Positions 37,145 through 45,162 of a DNA stretch of 64,000 nucleotides are shown in pieces. The stretch spans positions 1 through 64,000 of the forward strand of contig CAIVZZ010000031.1 in the NCBI GenBank assembly GCA_903910555.1. The letters are read 5' to 3'. A program made the translations under genes and the position numbers. Position 1 is the stretch's first letter. Every line of letters begins with the position of its first letter. The notes under the pieces are model-generated. The model saw only the letters and a program-made list of their open reading frames with translations, made no database searches and was not told the origin of the DNA. This DNA is from an uncultured Gemmatimonadota bacterium (lineage in GTDB: Bacteria > Gemmatimonadota > Gemmatimonadetes > Gemmatimonadales > Gemmatimonadaceae).

Positions 37145-37645
37145 ATGCGTCTCACTGTAAACGGCCGCCACCACGATCTGCCGCCCTCACCGGCGGTCAC
37201 CCTGCTGGAACTTCTCCGCGACCGGCTCTCGCTCACCGGCACGAAGCTCGTCTGTGACCGTGGCGAATGCGGCGCATGCACCGTACAGCTCGATGGCGAG
37301 ATCGTCTACTCGTGCCTGACGCTCGCTGAAGCATGCGACGGCTCAAGTGTGCTGACGGTCGAGGGGCTGTCATCAGGCGGCGCAGATTCTGCGCTCTCGC
37401 CACTCCAGCGCGCCTTCATCGCAAAAGACGCCGCGCAGTGCGGATTCTGCACCCCGGGTCAGCTCATCGCCGCACACACGCTGCTCGCAAACAATCCTGC
37501 CCCGACTGACGAAGAAATCCGCGCCGGCATGAGCGGAAATCTCTGCCGCTGCGGCACATACCCGAATATTCTTGCGGCGATCCGCGCGGTAGCCGAAGGT
37601 GAGTTCGAAGCGGCGCCCGCGGCCGGAGCAACTCGTGCCTCGTAA
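37145..37645 (+). CDS. Molybdenum hydroxylase [2Fe-2S] subunit (XdhC/CoxS/YagT family)
   Basis: The 166-residue protein has the plant-type 2Fe-2S site CDRGECGACTV with a following SCLTLAEAC, and the helical 2Fe-2S domain with CGFCTPGQ and CRCGTYPN. It passes electrons from the molybdenum centre to the FAD subunit. Unlike E. coli PaoA it has no signal sequence, so the complex is probably cytoplasmic. The Mo subunit gene starts inside its last codons. The matching FAD subunit gene is about 6 kb away. Confidence 0.95.
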   Translation: MRLTVNGRHHDLPPSPAVTLLELLRDRLSLTGTKLVCDRGECGACTVQLDGEIVYSCLTLAEACDGSSVLTVEGLSSGGADSALSPLQRAFIAKDAAQCGFCTPGQLIAAHTLLANNPAPTDEEIRAGMSGNLCRCGTYPNILAAIRAVAEGEFEAAPAAGATRAS

Positions 37646-39947
37646 GTCGAAGACCGCTGCAAAGCCCGGCGGGTTCGTTTCGACAACGGTCGAAATCGAA
37701 GGGCGCACCGAAACGCGCATCGTTGAAATGCCGGCTTTCGAGCCGGCCGCGTGGGGCGACGACGCAGAGCTCGGTATCGTCGGCTCACGCGTGCCCCGTA
37801 TGGACGCGCCGGAACGTGTCACCGGCCGCGCACGCTACACCGCGGATATCACGCGCCCGGGAATGCTCTACGCGTTCATTCTCCGGTCTACGATTCCGCG
37901 CGGCACGATTCGCTCGATCGATCTCACGCGCGCATCCAAAATGCCGGGCGTGTTCGACGTACTAGGCCCCGGCGACGCACCCGCCGGCACGCGACTGTTC
38001 AACCGCGAGATTTTCTACGCGGGACAGCCGGTTGCCGCGGTCTGCGCGGAAAACGAAAACGCCGCACGCAATGCGGCGCATGCGATCGCCGTCGAGTACG
38101 ACGCCCTACCCTTCGCCGTCACCTTCGAAGACGCATCAGCGAAGAACGCGCCAAGAGTGCGCGCGAAAGGCAACGTGATGGAGAATGCGCCGCTCGTGAT
38201 GTCGCGCGGCGATATCGACGACGGTATCAAAGCCGCCGACGTGATCGTGCGCCGCGAATATCGCACACCGGTGCAGCTGCACACGGCGCTGGAGCCACAT
38301 GGAGCGGCCGCCGAGTGGGAAGGCGATCGGCTCACGGTTTGGGAATCGACCCAGGGCATTTTCCGCGTGCGCGGCGACATCGCGAAGGCGCTCGACATCG
38401 CGCTCTCGAAAGTCCGCGTCATCAAGGACTATATGGGCGGCGGGTTCGGCGCGAAGAACAGCGCCGGTCCGCACACGTACGTCGCCGCGATATTCGCAAA
38501 GCGTCAGGGCCGCGCCGTGCGCTGCATCAACGACCGCGAAGCCGAGCAGCTCGACAGCGGCAACCGTCCGTCATCCACGCAGCGCGTGACGATCGGTGCG
38601 AAAAAAGACGGCACGCTGACCGTCATCTTCGCGAGCATCGATGTCCCGCTTGGAATTAGCGGCTACGAAGGCGGCCCCGGCCAGATCTTTCACGAGATGT
38701 ACGCGTGCCCGAATGTCCGCACCGAAGAAACTTTTGCGTATGTGAACGCCAGCGGCATGGCAGCGTTCCGCGGCCCGGGATACGTGGAAGGCGCTTTTGG
38801 TCTCGAGTGCGCGATGAACACGCTCGCAAAGGGATTGAAACTCGATCCTATCGCCCTGCGAAAAAAGAATTTCACCAAACGCGAGCCAAGACAGGATCGC
38901 CCCTACTCCGGCAACAATCTCCTCGCCTGCTACAAGGAAGGCGCCGAAGCTTTTGGGTGGTTAACGGAAAACAGAAAACCGACGACAGAAAACAGTAAAC
39001 GCGTTGGCAAAGGCGTCGCCGCCCAAGTCTGGCCGACCGGCGGCGGACCTCCCGCTTACGCTCTGCTCAGAATTAATCCCGACGGCACCATCGACGTTCT
39101 GGCCGGAACCCAGGACCTCGGCACCGGCGCGCGTACCGTCCTCAGTCAGATCGCCGCCGAATCCATCGGCGCGAAACTGTCCGACGTCCGCGCGATTATT
39201 GGAGACACGGAGTCGCTGCCCTACACCGGCAACTCCTGGGGCTCGATGACAACCGCGTCGGTCGGCCCCGCGGTGCGCATGGCCGCCGAAGATGCGCAGC
39301 ATCAACTGTTCGAAGCTGCGGCGGCAATGCTCGATTCGAGTCCAAGCAGTCTTGAGGCGCGCGACTCGCGCATCATCGTCCGCGACACCGATCGCTCGAT
39401 GACGTTCGCCGAAGTCACCAAGAAACTCGGCAACGTCATGATCATGGGCAAAGGATCGCGCGGTCCGAATCCGGCCGACACCGCGATCATGACATTCGGC
39501 GCACAGTTCGCCGAGGTCGAAGTGGATATCGACACCGGAATTGTGCGCGTGCTGCGCTTCACTGCGGCGCACGATGCGGGCCGGATTATTAATCCGACCC
39601 TCGCAGAGAGTCAGCTCGAAGGCGGCATCATCCAGGGAATCGGCTACGCGCTGTTCGAAGAACGCATCCTCGATCGCAAGCGCGGCCTCGTGATGAATCC
39701 CACGATGCACGATTACAAAATTCCGACGATGGCGGACATTCCGGTCATCGACGCGTTTTTTGTTTCGGGCGCCGATCCCGTTGCGAATCACACCGGTGCG
39801 CGCGGAATCGCCGAACCGCCCATCATCCCAACCGCGCCGGCAATCGCCGCCGCGGTGAGTGACGCGATCGGCGTGGAGATGACTGAGATTCCGCTGACAC
39901 CGTGGCGTGTGCTCGCCGCATTGAAAAAAGCGCGCGCCGGTCGCTGA
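37635..39947 (+). CDS. Molybdenum hydroxylase molybdopterin-binding subunit (xanthine dehydrogenase family)
   Basis: GTG 37635 overlaps the preceding stop and gives 770 residues. Cofactor motifs include YMGGGFGAKN, AAFRGPGYVEGAF, TQDLGTGARTVLSQIAAE, and the catalytic glutamate in GARGIAEPPIIPTAP near the C-terminus. It hydroxylates an aldehyde or N-heterocycle. The YagR-like sequence and the 4Fe-4S type of its FAD partner favour aldehydes. Residues about 444-455 (LTENRKPTTENSKR region) are encoded by an AT-rich period-7 repeat that looks inserted between conserved blocks. Confidence 0.94.
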   Translation: MPRKSKTAAKPGGFVSTTVEIEGRTETRIVEMPAFEPAAWGDDAELGIVGSRVPRMDAPERVTGRARYTADITRPGMLYAFILRSTIPRGTIRSIDLTRASKMPGVFDVLGPGDAPAGTRLFNREIFYAGQPVAAVCAENENAARNAAHAIAVEYDALPFAVTFEDASAKNAPRVRAKGNVMENAPLVMSRGDIDDGIKAADVIVRREYRTPVQLHTALEPHGAAAEWEGDRLTVWESTQGIFRVRGDIAKALDIALSKVRVIKDYMGGGFGAKNSAGPHTYVAAIFAKRQGRAVRCINDREAEQLDSGNRPSSTQRVTIGAKKDGTLTVIFASIDVPLGISGYEGGPGQIFHEMYACPNVRTEETFAYVNASGMAAFRGPGYVEGAFGLECAMNTLAKGLKLDPIALRKKNFTKREPRQDRPYSGNNLLACYKEGAEAFGWLTENRKPTTENSKRVGKGVAAQVWPTGGGPPAYALLRINPDGTIDVLAGTQDLGTGARTVLSQIAAESIGAKLSDVRAIIGDTESLPYTGNSWGSMTTASVGPAVRMAAEDAQHQLFEAAAAMLDSSPSSLEARDSRIIVRDTDRSMTFAEVTKKLGNVMIMGKGSRGPNPADTAIMTFGAQFAEVEVDIDTGIVRVLRFTAAHDAGRIINPTLAESQLEGGIIQGIGYALFEERILDRKRGLVMNPTMHDYKIPTMADIPVIDAFFVSGADPVANHTGARGIAEPPIIPTAPAIAAAVSDAIGVEMTEIPLTPWRVLAALKKARAGR
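38964..38998 (+). repeat. Period-7 tandem repeat inside the Mo-subunit gene
   Basis: Five seven-base units follow each other: acggaaa, acagaaa, accgacg, acagaaa, acagtaa. They are A-rich in a GC-rich gene and encode a polar loop, with the reading frame kept. Confidence 0.7.
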
Positions 39948-39955
39948 GCCGCAGG

Positions 39956-41170
39956 CTACCCGGCTTTTACTTTCCCCGCGAGCGCGTCGTGCCTGAACGC
40001 GCGCCACTCGGCGAGCGTGCCATCGGCAACACGTCGCGCCATCGCGAGTACGCCGCGCTTCCACCCGCGCTCGCCGGCGAACGCAATGAGATCGTCTGCG
40101 ATCGCCGACCCCTGACGGCCCGACGCACGCAGCGCGCCCCATGCCGTGACGCGTCCCATTGTCGTCATCGCGTCGCAGAGATTGTCGATGTCGCCGCCCC
40201 ACGCTTCCATGCGCATCCGGTCCTGCAGCGGCTGGAGTTCGCGGAGCACGAATCCTTCGCCATTCATTTTGACTGACGTCAGCAGCGCCGGGCTCACCGC
40301 CTGCACGCGCCGCTGTACCGCGACGATTCGCTCGGCGTCCGTCTTCCACTTCGGCTGTTTGTATGGCGAGCGGCCGGTTGACGCCGGCTCGCGCGCTTCT
40401 TTGAGATCGAGCAGATAGTTCCCGCGCGATGTTCCCTTCCCTTCCACGAGCACGATCCAGCGCGAAAGTCCGAGACTGCCGCAGCCGGCGACGCGCCGCG
40501 CAACATCGAGTACCCGATAGAATTTCTTTTTGCCGAGCTGCGCGCCGAGACGCTCGACGACTTTCGTAACGCGCGCGATGTCGCCGCTCGGCGAGGCGAG
40601 CGCCTTCACGCCATCCACACGAATGCGCCGGCGTCCGCCTTTTTCTTTGGTGCGCTCGCCGAGCAATGTTTTCCGTTTGCGTTCGCGGACAACATCGAGC
40701 AGCTCTCGCGCCATTCCTGTCGCGGTCTCGCGCTCGACCCAGCGCGCCTTCCCCCATGCGAGTGCCGCGGCAAACGAGTCGAGATAGAGATTCGCGAGCG
40801 TCGTCGCATCGCCGGCACTCACGCGCAGCGACGGCGCGCCGACGAACACACTCGCTGTGAAACGCACGAGGTCCCACGACACGGGGAGCAGCGCAGCTTC
40901 GTCGAAATCGTTCAGGTCGAAATAGACGAGGCGGTTGTCGCCCTTGTAGCAGCCGAGGTTTTCAAAATGCAGATCGCCGCACGACCAGATCGCGGGCGCG
41001 TCGTTCAGCGGCGTGCGCGAAGGCCACGCGTCGGTGAACAACTGGCAGCTGCCGCGATAGAACGCGAACGGACTCGCCGCCATGGCGGCGTATTTCAGTG
41101 CGAGCAGATCGGGCGCGCGCCCCTCGTGGTAGCGGGTGATGCGCGCCGTAACCGGGGTCAGACCACCCAC
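39956..41170 (-). CDS. DUF2252-family protein (kinase-like fold)
   Basis: The 404-residue protein starts at GTG 41170 and overlaps yhbY by 13 bases. DUF2252 marks: LKYAAMAASPFAFYRGSCQLF, WSCGDLHFENLGCYKG (a GDxHxxN motif like those of aminoglycoside phosphotransferase folds), YFDLNDFDEA and VLRELQPLQDRM. The family is uncharacterised, and phosphotransfer is suggested only by the fold-like motifs. It ends a minus-strand run with the Fic-like, M23 and YhbY genes. Confidence 0.9.
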   Translation of the reverse strand: MGGLTPVTARITRYHEGRAPDLLALKYAAMAASPFAFYRGSCQLFTDAWPSRTPLNDAPAIWSCGDLHFENLGCYKGDNRLVYFDLNDFDEAALLPVSWDLVRFTASVFVGAPSLRVSAGDATTLANLYLDSFAAALAWGKARWVERETATGMARELLDVVRERKRKTLLGERTKEKGGRRRIRVDGVKALASPSGDIARVTKVVERLGAQLGKKKFYRVLDVARRVAGCGSLGLSRWIVLVEGKGTSRGNYLLDLKEAREPASTGRSPYKQPKWKTDAERIVAVQRRVQAVSPALLTSVKMNGEGFVLRELQPLQDRMRMEAWGGDIDNLCDAMTTMGRVTAWGALRASGRQGSAIADDLIAFAGERGWKRGVLAMARRVADGTLAEWRAFRHDALAGKVKAG

Positions 41171-41469
41171 GGTGGAGCGTCGCCGCGCTTGCGTTCGATC
41201 TGCGGATTGTGGCGGTAGACCGTCACGGTCTTGCCGATCACCTGGATCACTTCGGCGTTCACGGCACCGGCGAGTTGACCGGCTGCCTCTTTCGCGCTCA
41301 GCTCGCCCTGCTTTCCGAGTACGACTTTCACGAGCTCGCGCGTACGCAGCGCGTCGTCGAGCGAATGAAAGAGCGCGCCCGTGAGTCCGTGCTGGCCGGC
41401 GTGCACCGTCGCCGTGAGGCGGTTTGCATGAGCGCGAAGTTCGGCGCGCTCCTTTCCTGTCATCGTCAT
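41158..41469 (-). CDS. yhbY: YhbY-type CRM-domain RNA-binding protein
   Basis: The 103-residue protein has the CRM fold signature: LTGKERAELRAHAN-like start, VHAGQHGLTGALFHSLDDAL (a GxxGx loop variant) and ELVKVVLG, ending IGKTVTVYRHNP. YhbY binds pre-50S ribosomal particles. Its start overlaps the M23 gene stop (ATGA), and its own stop lies inside the DUF2252 gene start. Confidence 0.92.
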   Translation of the reverse strand: MTMTGKERAELRAHANRLTATVHAGQHGLTGALFHSLDDALRTRELVKVVLGKQGELSAKEAAGQLAGAVNAEVIQVIGKTVTVYRHNPQIERKRGDAPPWVV

Positions 41470-42104
41470 CGCGTGATTCCCATCTGTGTGAAGAGCGGAA
41501 GCGGATTGACCGGCGGTCCGTCCGAGTAGCGTTTTCCCGATACGATTCGCACTACCTGAAAATGGAGGTGCGGCGTGTCTTTCGGCGCGTTCCCCGTCGT
41601 GCCCACATACCCGAGCACATCGCCGCGCGCGATCTGCTGACCGTCGTGCAATCCTTTGGCGTAGTGGTCGAGGTGCGCATAATAAAACGCGAAGCGCCGT
41701 GATGGATCGGTGGTCCAGATGACGTTGCCGCCGAGCGTGTTCTTGCCGACGTGAATAATGGAGCCATCGTCAGCCGCGAGAACCGGTGTGCCGCGCTTCG
41801 CGAGAATGTCCTGCGCGTTGTGCACGCGGGCGCCATCGCGCGGCGCATCGTATGTGTCGGGAATCTGGGACGCGAAAATCCCCTTCACCGGCACGAGCAA
41901 GCCGCGCTCGCGAAGTAACTCGAGTGCGGGGTCGCGCGCAGGTGGTTCGGCAATCCGATCGCCCGAGGGTGCCGGTGTGTTGACCGGGCCCGGCGATTCC
42001 GACGGCGGCTCCGGCAACGGCGCCATCGGCGGAAGCGGCTTGAGCGCCGGTCCGCACGAAACCACCACCAGCAGGAATGGGAGAGCCAGCGTTCGTCGGA
42101 TCAT
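41466..42104 (-). CDS. M23-family peptidoglycan endopeptidase lipoprotein
   Basis: The 212-residue protein has a lipoprotein signal (RTLALPFLLVVVSC) with Cys at about 17, a Pro-rich linker (about 20-60), and a LytM/M23 domain with HNAQD, DGSIIHVGKNTLGG, FYYAHLDHYAKGL and HLHFQVV. The zinc ligands appear complete. It is likely to cut peptidoglycan crosslinks or to act as an activator in the periplasm. It overlaps yhbY by four bases. Confidence 0.92.
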   Translation of the reverse strand: MIRRTLALPFLLVVVSCGPALKPLPPMAPLPEPPSESPGPVNTPAPSGDRIAEPPARDPALELLRERGLLVPVKGIFASQIPDTYDAPRDGARVHNAQDILAKRGTPVLAADDGSIIHVGKNTLGGNVIWTTDPSRRFAFYYAHLDHYAKGLHDGQQIARGDVLGYVGTTGNAPKDTPHLHFQVVRIVSGKRYSDGPPVNPLPLFTQMGITR

Positions 42105-42185: not shown

Positions 42186-43103
42186 CTACGCGCGCTCGGC
42201 GGGTGCCAGCGCCTTCACGATCCCCTCGTACGCGAACGCGCGTGACCGGGCGCGACCGGTAACCTCGCGAGCGATGCCGAGTTCAACCAAGCGCGCGACT
42301 GCGGCGCCGGCGGTGGGTGGCGTGGCGCCGAGCTTGCGCGCTGCGTCAGGCACCGTGATGACGATTTCATCGCGCAGGAGCGCAAGCAGGTCGAGCGCGG
42401 AGTACGCCGCTCGGCCGAGTGCTTCGCGGACGCGGGATTCGTCGGCATCGCAGATATCACGTGCCGCGGCGAGGCCGCGTTCAGCGGATCGTGCTTCTCG
42501 CGCGAAGGTGGCGAAGATGCCGTGTAAGGTGAGGTCGGCGCCGGACGGCGCGGGTGGGAGCGTGAGCCAGGCGTCAGAGGTCGCGCCGCCAACGCAGAGG
42601 ACCAGCGCGACGACCAGAGCGGAAAGCGTTTCGCTCTGCGCGTCAGCGGGCTCGCCCGGAGAAACGCTGCGTGCGGCACGCAATCCAAGCGCCGCGAGTG
42701 CGGCCTTGAGCACCGGCGGCGTGCGCTCGTGCACGTCGCGCAGGAGGTCATCGATCGGCCCCGCGGGCATTCCCGCGCCGGGGAGGCGCAGCAGGTCGTG
42801 GAGGTACGCAACGGACGGAAGCGCGCCACCCCGTGCCCGGGCAGCACCCTCGCGCAGCGCAGCCGCATAGCTGCGATGTGACGCAGGCCCCTCGCCATCG
42901 GCGCGCACCAGCGCAATCATTCCGGAGTGGGTCGTACCGACGGCGGTTGCGATGCACCGGACGACGAGCAGCTCGCGGAGTCCGGCCGGCGCGAGACATC
43001 CGGCCGCATTGAGCCGGCCGACCGCCGACGATGCGTCTTCGTATGTTCGGATCGCGTCAACGCCGCCAGTCGTGAGTGCGGTGGAGTCTAGCATGGGCAG
43101 CAT
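42186..43103 (-). CDS. Fic-derived protein lacking the Fic catalytic motif, with winged-helix C-terminus
   Basis: The 305-residue protein has the outline of a Fic-family protein: an N-terminal helical part (EDASSAVGRLNAAG, ASHRSYAAALREG, LPSVAYLHDLL) and a C-terminal winged helix (VPDAARKLGATPPTAGAAVA, RLVELGIAREVTGRARSR, about 245-295) almost identical in pattern to Fic C-termini. The place where HPFxDGNGR should lie reads SVSPGEPADAQSETLSALVV, so AMP-transfer activity is not expected. A DNA-binding role is inferred. It leads the minus-strand run and is divergent from the lipoprotein-FAD subunit operon. ATG 43094 is an alternative start. Confidence 0.65.
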   Translation of the reverse strand: MLPMLDSTALTTGGVDAIRTYEDASSAVGRLNAAGCLAPAGLRELLVVRCIATAVGTTHSGMIALVRADGEGPASHRSYAAALREGAARARGGALPSVAYLHDLLRLPGAGMPAGPIDDLLRDVHERTPPVLKAALAALGLRAARSVSPGEPADAQSETLSALVVALVLCVGGATSDAWLTLPPAPSGADLTLHGIFATFAREARSAERGLAAARDICDADESRVREALGRAAYSALDLLALLRDEIVITVPDAARKLGATPPTAGAAVARLVELGIAREVTGRARSRAFAYEGIVKALAPAERA

Positions 43104-43131
43104 GTTCAGTTCAAGATGACTACTACGTAAA

Positions 43132-43142
43132 AATAGACTATT
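43132..43142. promoter_or_regulatory. AATAG-a-CTATT palindrome in an AT-rich divergent promoter region
   Basis: This 11-base hyphenated palindrome lies 29 bases upstream of the Fic-like gene inside the gap 43104-43213, which is strikingly AT-rich. It is a candidate operator for the winged-helix protein encoded next to it. Confidence 0.35.
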
Positions 43143-43203
43143 ATTTCTTCTTTACAAGCTATTCATTCCGCCTGATTCGAACAGTAAAGTAAAATTCATA
43201 GCC

Positions 43204-43209
43204 TATAAT
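43204..43209 (+). promoter_or_regulatory. Consensus TATAAT box four bases before a GTG start
   Basis: TATAAT at 43204-43209 is a perfect -10 sequence. The GTG of the lipoprotein gene is at 43214, so transcription would begin at or just within the start codon. No other in-frame start follows before the signal peptide. Confidence 0.5.
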
Positions 43210-43213
43210 ATAC

Positions 43214-43597
43214 GTGCAGACTCGCAGATCGCTAATCTTTGCATTCTTGGCAATCGTTGCCGCAACCGCGTGCAGCGGTGGCGGCGGCACATCAACTGAG
43301 GTCGGCGGCGGCACTGTTGTCGTTAGCGCATCGGCCGGCACCACCCCCACCTATAGCTGGACCGGCCCGACGGCCGTCACGATCACGGTCGCCCGAGCCG
43401 CCGCGCCATCTACGGCAGTGTGGGGAATCTCATGCCCCATCAATCGGGACATACCGTCTGGCTCCAAACACGGAGTCGTCCCGTCCGACGCAACCGTGAC
43501 CGCTACCGCCGAGCCAGTGCTTACCGCTGGCGTGAAGTACCGGGTGACCGTCGCCCTCATCGACGGAACCTCCGGGTCAGTAGACTTCACTCCATAA
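43214..43597 (+). CDS. Small hypothetical lipoprotein
   Basis: The 127-residue protein (GTG start) has a lipoprotein signal (SLIFAFLAIVAATAC; Cys about 20), a glycine/serine-threonine linker (SGGGGTSTEVGGG), and a beta-rich domain of about 90 residues with two cysteines or fewer (GISCPIN). It ends with a fibronectin-like TAGVKYRVTVALIDGT. No family is recognised. The FAD-subunit gene starts on its stop codon (TAATG), so the two are co-translated. Its role with a molybdenum enzyme is unclear. Confidence 0.75.
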   Translation: MQTRRSLIFAFLAIVAATACSGGGGTSTEVGGGTVVVSASAGTTPTYSWTGPTAVTITVARAAAPSTAVWGISCPINRDIPSGSKHGVVPSDATVTATAEPVLTAGVKYRVTVALIDGTSGSVDFTP

Positions 43598-44565
43598 TGA
43601 AGCCGTTCGACTACCACCGCCCTGATACTTCCGCCGACGCGCTTGCCGCGCTTGGCGTGCCGGAGTCGGTTGCACTCGGCGGCGGCACTGATCTGCTCGT
43701 GACGATGAAAGAAGGACTCATCGACCCGGCTCACCTCGTCGATGTGCGGCATCTGAAAGGCGCGCGCGACATCACGCTGCGTGCCGACGGATCCGCGCGG
43801 CTTGGTGGCGCGGTGCGCATCGCCGATCTCGCGACGCACGCGGTGATTCGCGAGCGTTTTGCGGCACTCGCGGAAGCCGCGCGACTCGTCGGAACGCCGG
43901 CGCTGCGCAATATGGGAACCATCGCGGGAAATATTTGCCAACGTCCGCGCTGCTGGTACTTTCGCCGCGGCGTGCCCTGCCTGAAAAACGGCGGAAGCGG
44001 CTGCGCGGCCGTCGACGGTGAGAATCAGTATCACGCGATCATGGGCGGCGGACCCTGTCACGCCGTGCATCCATCTGATCCTGCCGTTGCGCTCACCGCG
44101 CTCGACGCTAGCGTCGAAATCGTCGGCGCGCGGGATGCGCGGCGCAGCGTGCCGATCGCGCTCTTCTTTGCGAACGCCGAATCGAATCCGCTGGGTGAAA
44201 CCGTGCTCGCGCACGGCGAGATCATTGAAGCGATTGAGATTCCTGCGCACTCCGCCGGCGGAACGCAGCACTATGAAAAGTTGATGCAGCGCGGAGCGTG
44301 GGATTTCGCGCTCGTGTCGCTCGCGGGAATCAAGAGAGCCGACGGCGAAGTGCGACTCGTGCTCGGCGGTGTCGCGCCGGCGCCGCAGCGAGTGAATCCG
44401 TCAGTCGAGGAAGACGTGGCGAGCGGCGCGCTCGATGACGAGAGCGCTGATGCGCTTGCGGAGCGGGCGCTGTACGATGCGGCGCCGCTTTCGAAGAATG
44501 AATACAAAGTCACGCAGGCGGCGGCGCTGCTGAAGCGCGCGATGCTTGAGCTCTCGCGTGCGTGA
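43597..44565 (+). CDS. Molybdenum hydroxylase FAD subunit with 4Fe-4S insertion (YagS/PaoB type)
   Basis: ATG 43597 (MKPFDYHRPDTSADALAALG) gives 322 residues. FAD-binding signatures: VALGGGTDLLVTMKEG and LRNMGTIAGNICQRPRCWYF. The cysteines in NICQRPRCWYF, GVPCLKN, GSGCAAV and GGPCHAV match the extra 4Fe-4S cluster known in E. coli PaoB. It takes electrons from the 2Fe-2S subunit. The other two subunits are at 37.1-39.9 kb, separated by four opposite-strand genes. Confidence 0.93.
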   Translation: MKPFDYHRPDTSADALAALGVPESVALGGGTDLLVTMKEGLIDPAHLVDVRHLKGARDITLRADGSARLGGAVRIADLATHAVIRERFAALAEAARLVGTPALRNMGTIAGNICQRPRCWYFRRGVPCLKNGGSGCAAVDGENQYHAIMGGGPCHAVHPSDPAVALTALDASVEIVGARDARRSVPIALFFANAESNPLGETVLAHGEIIEAIEIPAHSAGGTQHYEKLMQRGAWDFALVSLAGIKRADGEVRLVLGGVAPAPQRVNPSVEEDVASGALDDESADALAERALYDAAPLSKNEYKVTQAAALLKRAMLELSRA

Positions 44566-44583
44566 AATGATCGCGAGCGCCGC

Positions 44584-45162
44584 GTGAGCGATCGCCCAGA
44601 TCCGGTTGGCGTGGTGATCATCGGCGCCGGCGCGGGAACGCGGTTCGGTGGACCGAAAGCCGAAGCAACGCTCGCTGACGGACGCCGATTTCTCGACGCG
44701 ATCGTCGAGACGGCAAAGAGCGCCGGACTCGATCCGATTATTGCGGTGCTGCCACCCGGTGTCGTTGCGCCTGCCGGTGTGCGAGTCGTGGTGAACTCGA
44801 ATCCGAAATCAGAACAGATTGTGAGCGCGCGGCTTGGCCTCGCGCAGCTGACGAACGCGCCGCTGACATCGGCTATGCTGTGGCCGGTCGATCATCCGTT
44901 CGTCACTCTGGCGAGTGTGCTCGCGATCCTCGATACGGCGCGGACTTCGGGCGCGCACATCGTCGTGCCGGTGCACGAATCACACCGCGGCCACCCCACC
45001 TGGTTTCATCGAGATACGTGGCGTGAGCTCATGACCACTCCGGACGGCGGCGCGCGCGCGGTGATTCGCGGCGATCCATCGCGCGTGCGTGAAGTCCCGG
45101 TGAATGATCACGGCGTGCTGCGCGACATCGACACGCGCGCGGATCTCGAGAGCGCTGGCTAG
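44584..45162 (+). CDS. MocA-like molybdenum cofactor nucleotidyltransferase
   Basis: The 192-residue protein (GTG start) has the MobA/MocA signature VIIGAGAGTRFGGPKAEATL, WPVDHPFVTLASV and HRGHPTWFHRDTWRELM. MocA attaches CMP to molybdopterin, giving the MCD cofactor used by PaoABC-type hydroxylases. Position directly after the FAD subunit gene supports this over the GMP-adding MobA. Length is normal. Confidence 0.88.
   Translation: MSDRPDPVGVVIIGAGAGTRFGGPKAEATLADGRRFLDAIVETAKSAGLDPIIAVLPPGVVAPAGVRVVVNSNPKSEQIVSARLGLAQLTNAPLTSAMLWPVDHPFVTLASVLAILDTARTSGAHIVVPVHESHRGHPTWFHRDTWRELMTTPDGGARAVIRGDPSRVREVPVNDHGVLRDIDTRADLESAG

Follow-up and report, generated by a model that had tools for sequence, protein, structure and literature searches.

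A Fic-fold protein family of Gemmatimonadaceae that lacks the catalytic motif and retains a winged helix, predicted to act as a transcription regulator

The pseudo-Fic gene in the window (the whole 64,000-nucleotide stretch of Gemmatimonadaceae DNA analysed here) encodes a full-length Fic homologue, confirmed by the fold and the sequence homology that define the Fic (Fido) fold superfamily, in which the catalytic and inhibitory motifs have been lost and a C-terminal winged helix has been kept (Table 1). A Fic ancestry, a missing catalytic motif and a preserved winged helix, all proposed in a preliminary description made from the sequence, are supported by the present analysis, and descent from a class II Fic that carries its winged helix at the C-terminus is the best explanation for them. 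The same description had suggested that such a protein may have become a transcription regulator, and this switch is the best-supported explanation here, given the inverted conservation and the conserved promoter element described below. The protein is thus probably a regulator with predicted DNA binding, acting on its own gene at a divergent promoter.

With the single protein as query, no match to the Fic domain (PF02661) was found in Pfam, and the Pfam matches obtained were all sub-threshold helix-turn-helix (HTH) domains, namely MarR_2 (E 1e-4; 22.9 bits, below the cut-off of 27) and HTH_13 (E 0.004; 17.6 bits, below the cut-off of 26.1). NCBIfam and PHROGs also gave sub-threshold HTH matches only, with 11.8 bits for NF040876 (RHE_PE00001/DUF1612-HTH_13), whose cut-off is 250 bits, and the Fic chain 7cb8 was a weak match in phmmer (E 0.1). 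Because the single protein gives weak matches only, the Fic assignment needed family evidence. For this, a family profile of the motif-less proteins (A1) was compared with a set of eight active Fics (A2), taken from the weaker search matches, which are ordinary Fic proteins of 380-410 aa with HPFLDGNGR and SSQIEG. The two were aligned by hhalign over 291 columns, from the N-terminal GRLD region to the winged helix (Prob 99.7, E 2.5e-25), which bears out the Fic layout read earlier from the N- and C-terminal parts. The A1 profile also matched 7cb8 over its full length when searched against the PDB sequences (E 1.1e-5), the only chain matched being a Fic, and the orthologues were matched by the active-Fic HMM at E 1e-22 to 4e-9.

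The AlphaFold2 model was built from A1 alone, an alignment that holds no motif-bearing Fic, and reached a pLDDT of 88.8 and a pTM of 0.88. Foldseek returned seven matches at E <= 0.001, all seven of them Fic proteins, with TMq of 0.66-0.74 (0.74 to 3zcn), and VIA-align superposed 287-290 of the 305 residues on 7cb8, 3zcn and 3eqx with Z of 23-24 (for 7cb8, Z 24 and 3.1 Å over 287 residues), the next-ranked and far lower rows being other Fic proteins. The model therefore corresponds to the Fic crystals end to end, being neither an unrelated fold nor a winged helix alone, and the latter candidate is ruled out by the predicted Fic fold along the whole length. The winged helix, earlier described as intact, is present in the model, in addition to the MarR_2 match that stays under the Pfam cut-off. 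Architecture and fold are the same throughout as in the class II Fics with a C-terminal winged helix, such as SO_4266 (PDB 3eqx/3zcn) and the M. marinum Fic (PDB 7cb8).

Unlike these class II Fics, the pseudo-Fic lacks both HPFx(D/E)GNGR and an inhibitory motif in the expected position, is about 60-100 residues shorter and has its conservation moved to the winged helix. The Fic AMPylase motif of PF02661, HPFx(D/E)GN(G/K)R, is absent from 25 of 25 proteins, that is, from the window protein, where the lack of HPFxDGNGR had been noticed beforehand, and from all 24 relatives examined, so that orthologues sharing the loss do exist. At the place of the catalytic loop the window protein has no His and no GNGR, and the stretch aligned to HPFxDGNGR is GLRAARSVSPGEPADAQSETLS; among the orthologues this old active-site region varies in length, and nothing such as a conserved His, Asp or GNG-like loop has taken the place of the motif. 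The inhibitory (S/T)xxxEG, present in 8/8 active relatives, is gone from the aligned place in the window protein, which likewise lacks the N-terminal inhibitory (S/T)xxxE(G/N) helix motif of class II. TQxxEG occurs close to this place in two orthologues (L008 and L011), and further matches are found at other sequence positions. The joint loss of the two motifs fits a protein that has given up catalysis and with it any requirement for a brake. In a tree of 41 proteins, the 24 motif-less ones fall on one side of a 100/100 branch, which is compatible with a single loss, the separating branch being long and the topology no proof. Three arginines of the body (R30, R49 and R231) are invariant.

The gene is under purifying selection, with orthologue dN/dS values of 0.10-0.31, near those of the neighbouring M23 gene (0.16-0.25), and a pseudogene is ruled out by these values and by the open frames. 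The conservation along the protein is inverted with respect to that of the enzymes: in the active Fics the mean pairwise identity is 1.00 in the motif, 0.57 in the core and 0.37 in the winged helix, whereas in the motif-less family it is 0.13 in the old catalytic stretch, 0.30 in the body and 0.54 in the winged helix. The recognition helix and the wing are rich in invariant residues, which include P263, T264, A268, R271, L272, G276, E280, T282, G283 and R288.

Table 1. Coordinates in the window of the pseudo-Fic gene, its parts, the candidate operator copies and the neighbouring genes.
Feature	Position	Strand	Remarks
CRS1/YhbY ribosome-associated RNA-binding protein	41158..41469	-	
M23 peptidase	41466..42104	-	Co-directional, 81 bp downstream of the pseudo-Fic gene
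Pseudo-Fic gene	42186..43103	-	305 aa, ATG start; product a degenerate Fic-fold protein whose C-terminal domain is a winged helix
Winged-helix DNA-binding domain	42216..42365	-	Residues 247-296; best-conserved region of the family
Place of the former HPFLDGNGR catalytic loop	42630..42674	-	About residues 144-158; shows the lowest conservation within the family
Place of the Fic inhibitory helix motif	42921..42962	-	Motif lost, with VRCIATAVGTTHSG instead of the SSQIEG of active relatives
N-terminal helical part of the Fic fold	42936..43064	-	Residues 14-56; conserved GRL and R49
AT-rich divergent intergenic gap	43104..43213	.	Holds the candidate operator
Candidate operator copy adjoining the Fic-like gene	43133..43155	-	TAAAGAAGAAATAATAGTCTAT
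Second candidate operator copy	43184..43206	+	TAAAGTAAAATTCATAGCCTAT; inverted, 28 nt from the first, reads toward the divergent genes; overlaps TATAAT
Lipoprotein-like ORF	43214..43597	+	Small, 127 aa; first of the divergent unit; stop overlaps the next start
Mo-hydroxylase FAD subunit (CoxM/XdhB type)	43597..44565	+	FAD_binding_5, E 1.7e-39
MobA-like NTP transferase	44584..45162	+	

The family is inherited vertically and in synteny in Gemmatimonadaceae. A search of 60 relatives found orthologues in most congeners, and with the profile in 17 of 18, G004 being the sole congener without one. In the contig collection, a scan with the single protein found nothing, and the close named matches of a scan with an eight-row alignment were MAGs of Gemmatimonadetes/Gemmatimonadaceae. 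A second clade (clade 2), motif-less too, comprises seven further loci and G029. No literature on the gemmatimonad pseudo-Fic family was found. Where the flank was long enough, almost every genome shows the gene order Mo-hydroxylase FAD subunit (on the divergent side), Fic-like gene, M23, YhbY and Mo-hydroxylase large subunit. The neighbours evolve more slowly than the Fic-like protein, with identities to G010 of 81% for M23 and 84% for the FAD subunit and of 67% for the Fic-like protein.

The M23 and YhbY genes, which correspond to the cell-wall and ribosome genes of the operon that the preliminary description placed under the pseudo-Fic gene, do lie on its strand, as does a DUF2252 gene. As a general statement the operon headship fails, since a convergent thioredoxin-family gene separates the Fic-like gene from M23 in many relatives, and an M23/YhbY operon led by the pseudo-Fic gene is at most local. 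DUF2252, YhbY and M23 form a tight three-gene unit with successive overlaps (window 39956-41469), and DUF2252 is absent at this locus in several congeners. The Fic-like/M23/YhbY block stands between the small and large subunits of the Mo-hydroxylase (37145-39947) and its FAD subunit with the MobA-like gene (43597-45162), and this split is also found in most relatives seen.

The FAD subunit unit, said to face the pseudo-Fic gene, is indeed on the opposite strand; its first gene is the lipoprotein-like ORF, so that the FAD subunit comes second in the window genome. The direct divergent neighbour is a ChaN-like haem-binding protein gene (PF04187) in 17 loci, and thus in most genomes, and the FAD subunit in a minority, the five congeners G001, G003, G005, G009 and G011. 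ChaN was not detected in the window genome, which rules it out as a fixed target; because ChaN, lipoprotein and FAD subunit are consecutive genes in G002 (C193, L060), the ChaN-like gene has probably been lost here, judging from the compared gene orders. With this apparent loss, the candidate operator now directly faces the lipoprotein/FAD-subunit unit.

An AT-rich element resembling TAAARTAAAAATARNTAT lies just upstream of every orthologue with flank. In 367 kb of fetched DNA, element scores above 14 are confined to these gaps, and loci without the Fic-like gene score at most 6.4, bar one of 11.4 in the other contig of G002. This weaker match (L060, 3538-3559 of C193) is away from the Fic-like gene and is a possible second target. 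When the group of each locus was left out of training, the held-out profile had its top match at the site in 16/16 loci; in the seven clade-2 loci, which had no part in any training, the highest-scoring match fell in the gap or in the first codons beside it, with modest scores of 10-18. The sequence model found ten sites in 37 whole genomes at E <= 10, all at the pseudo-Fic promoter; these are the training sites, and the information lies in the absence of others. With up to one mismatch, the dyad pattern is unique in its own 3.2-Mb genome, where it is the copy adjoining the Fic-like gene. Palindromic character is stronger in the element sites than in shuffled sequences (4.41 vs 3.22 +/- 0.39, 0/300).

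The two copies of the window gap form an inverted repeat with 23-nt arms, 78% complementary, and a 28-nt spacer, and none of 60 shuffles was as good. Among the 13 gaps examined for the long inverted pair, that of the window genome alone has one that beats shuffles; the geometry of the pair is the same in G010 and differs in the others. Helical phasing of paired sites was considered and dropped, register and strand being too variable. The clade-2 copy on the ChaN side overlaps with codons of the ChaN signal peptide. Since every element site is in an orthologous position, common descent accounts for some of the similarity among the sites. Because the element overlaps -10-like hexamers (TATTAT, and TATAAT beside the second copy), operator and core promoter are inseparable by sequence. 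The gene-specificity and the dyad character favour a regulator site, and the element could also be a gene-specific core promoter.

In the proposed mechanism, the Fic helical body would now serve as scaffold and dimeriser, the winged helix would bind the AT-rich element between the divergent genes, and the bound protein would regulate, presumably by repression, its own promoter and that of the gene opposite. The putative targets opposite would be the lipoprotein-FAD subunit-MobA unit here and ChaN or the FAD subunit in the relatives. A wider version, in which an AMPylase became a dedicated transcription factor across the family and the emptied pocket serves as a ligand-sensing or dimerisation module controlling the divergent haem-protein or Mo-enzyme genes, is conceivable and rather doubtful.

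Against a regulator stands the explanation that the protein is a structural or protein-binding remnant and the upstream element its own core promoter, a -10 region with an A-tract, instead of a binding site. It agrees with the element containing TANNNT-like hexamers immediately before the start and keeping to the orthologous position throughout; a generic promoter should, however, recur, and nothing else exceeded 14 in the 367 kb of flanks, nor was there another site in the 37 genomes at E up to 10. With sites more palindromic than all 300 shuffles and the winged helix as the most conserved part, a remnant is unlikely. The three invariant arginines (R30, R49, R231) that remain in the body could instead belong to an enzyme with changed chemistry, its Fido fold transferring another group and its winged helix serving only for DNA placement or autoregulation, as is conceivable from AvrB, which lacks the Fic motif residues and yet is a glycosyltransferase (PMC10866546, PMC2686095). 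Such an enzyme is quite improbable when its would-be active site is the least conserved region (0.13), varies in length among orthologues and offers no conserved His, Asp or GNG-like loop as a replacement. That the protein is the antitoxin-like half or a silenced partner in a Fic toxin system would find some support in G011 and G012, where a Fic protein with its motif intact is encoded as well, yet no PF02661 Fic-domain gene was detected in the window genome and the genes around it belong to metabolism and the cell wall, with no toxin among them, which makes this reading extremely improbable.

For the autoregulator reading, a precedent is CccR, an active Fic with a C-terminal wHTH, which represses its own promoter through AGATAATCAT-N26-ATGATAATCT; the fragment holding the wHTH is enough for binding, dimerisation is required, and regulation and toxicity are independent of each other (PMC9755527). 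The window protein shares with it the Fic body with a wHTH and AT-rich inverted repeats in its own promoter, with a spacer of 26 bp in CccR and 28 nt here, the repeat not being significant in most relatives of the window protein. CccR is, however, an active AMPylase and a secreted effector, whereas the window protein has no FIC motif and no recognisable active site. By analogy, the pseudo-Fic family looks like the regulatory half of CccR kept and the enzymatic half let go. CbFic2, also a Fic body with an HTH, binds DNA through the latter; it is an active enzyme whose catalysis is stimulated by DNA, in contrast to the pseudo-Fic without the catalytic motif (PMC10628234).

The lineage dropped catalysis and autoinhibition together, and its strongest constraint is on the DNA-binding end, at a fixed chromosomal place. 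It makes the change from enzyme to regulator open to test, supplies an exact candidate operator, and suggests that ordinary Fic enzymes may also use their winged helices for autoregulation. Research on Fic proteins has been mostly on catalysis. The family also shows why motif-less Fic-like ORFs escape Pfam and NCBIfam.

Proteins that join a fic-like body to a winged helix and stand outside the catalytic family have been described before, though they are little explored. The DUF1612 proteins, with a remotely fic-like N-terminus and a C-terminal winged helix, were noted by Kinch et al. 2009 (PMC2686095), and one of them, RHE_PE00001, has been proposed to be essential in Rhizobium etli (PMC9022086). 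DUF1612/RHE_PE00001, with HTH_13, resembles the pseudo-Fic in its remote fic-like body and winged helix, and the profile of the pseudo-Fic family matched that of the Rhodobacterales cousins of RHE_PE00001 over nearly the full length (E 2e-9, 271 columns). It differs in lineage and gene context, and the pseudo-Fic is far below its cut-offs (11.8 vs 250 bits); the gemmatimonad family is a separate variant, with stronger evidence for a regulatory role than the RHE_PE00001 kind. The Rhodobacterales HTH_13 proteins, whose Fic origin is a matter of profile support, are possibly a second pseudo-Fic lineage. These relatives of RHE_PE00001 (L106-L110 and L091) carry HTH_13 and are annotated as hypothetical, and several lie beside recombinase genes on plasmids.
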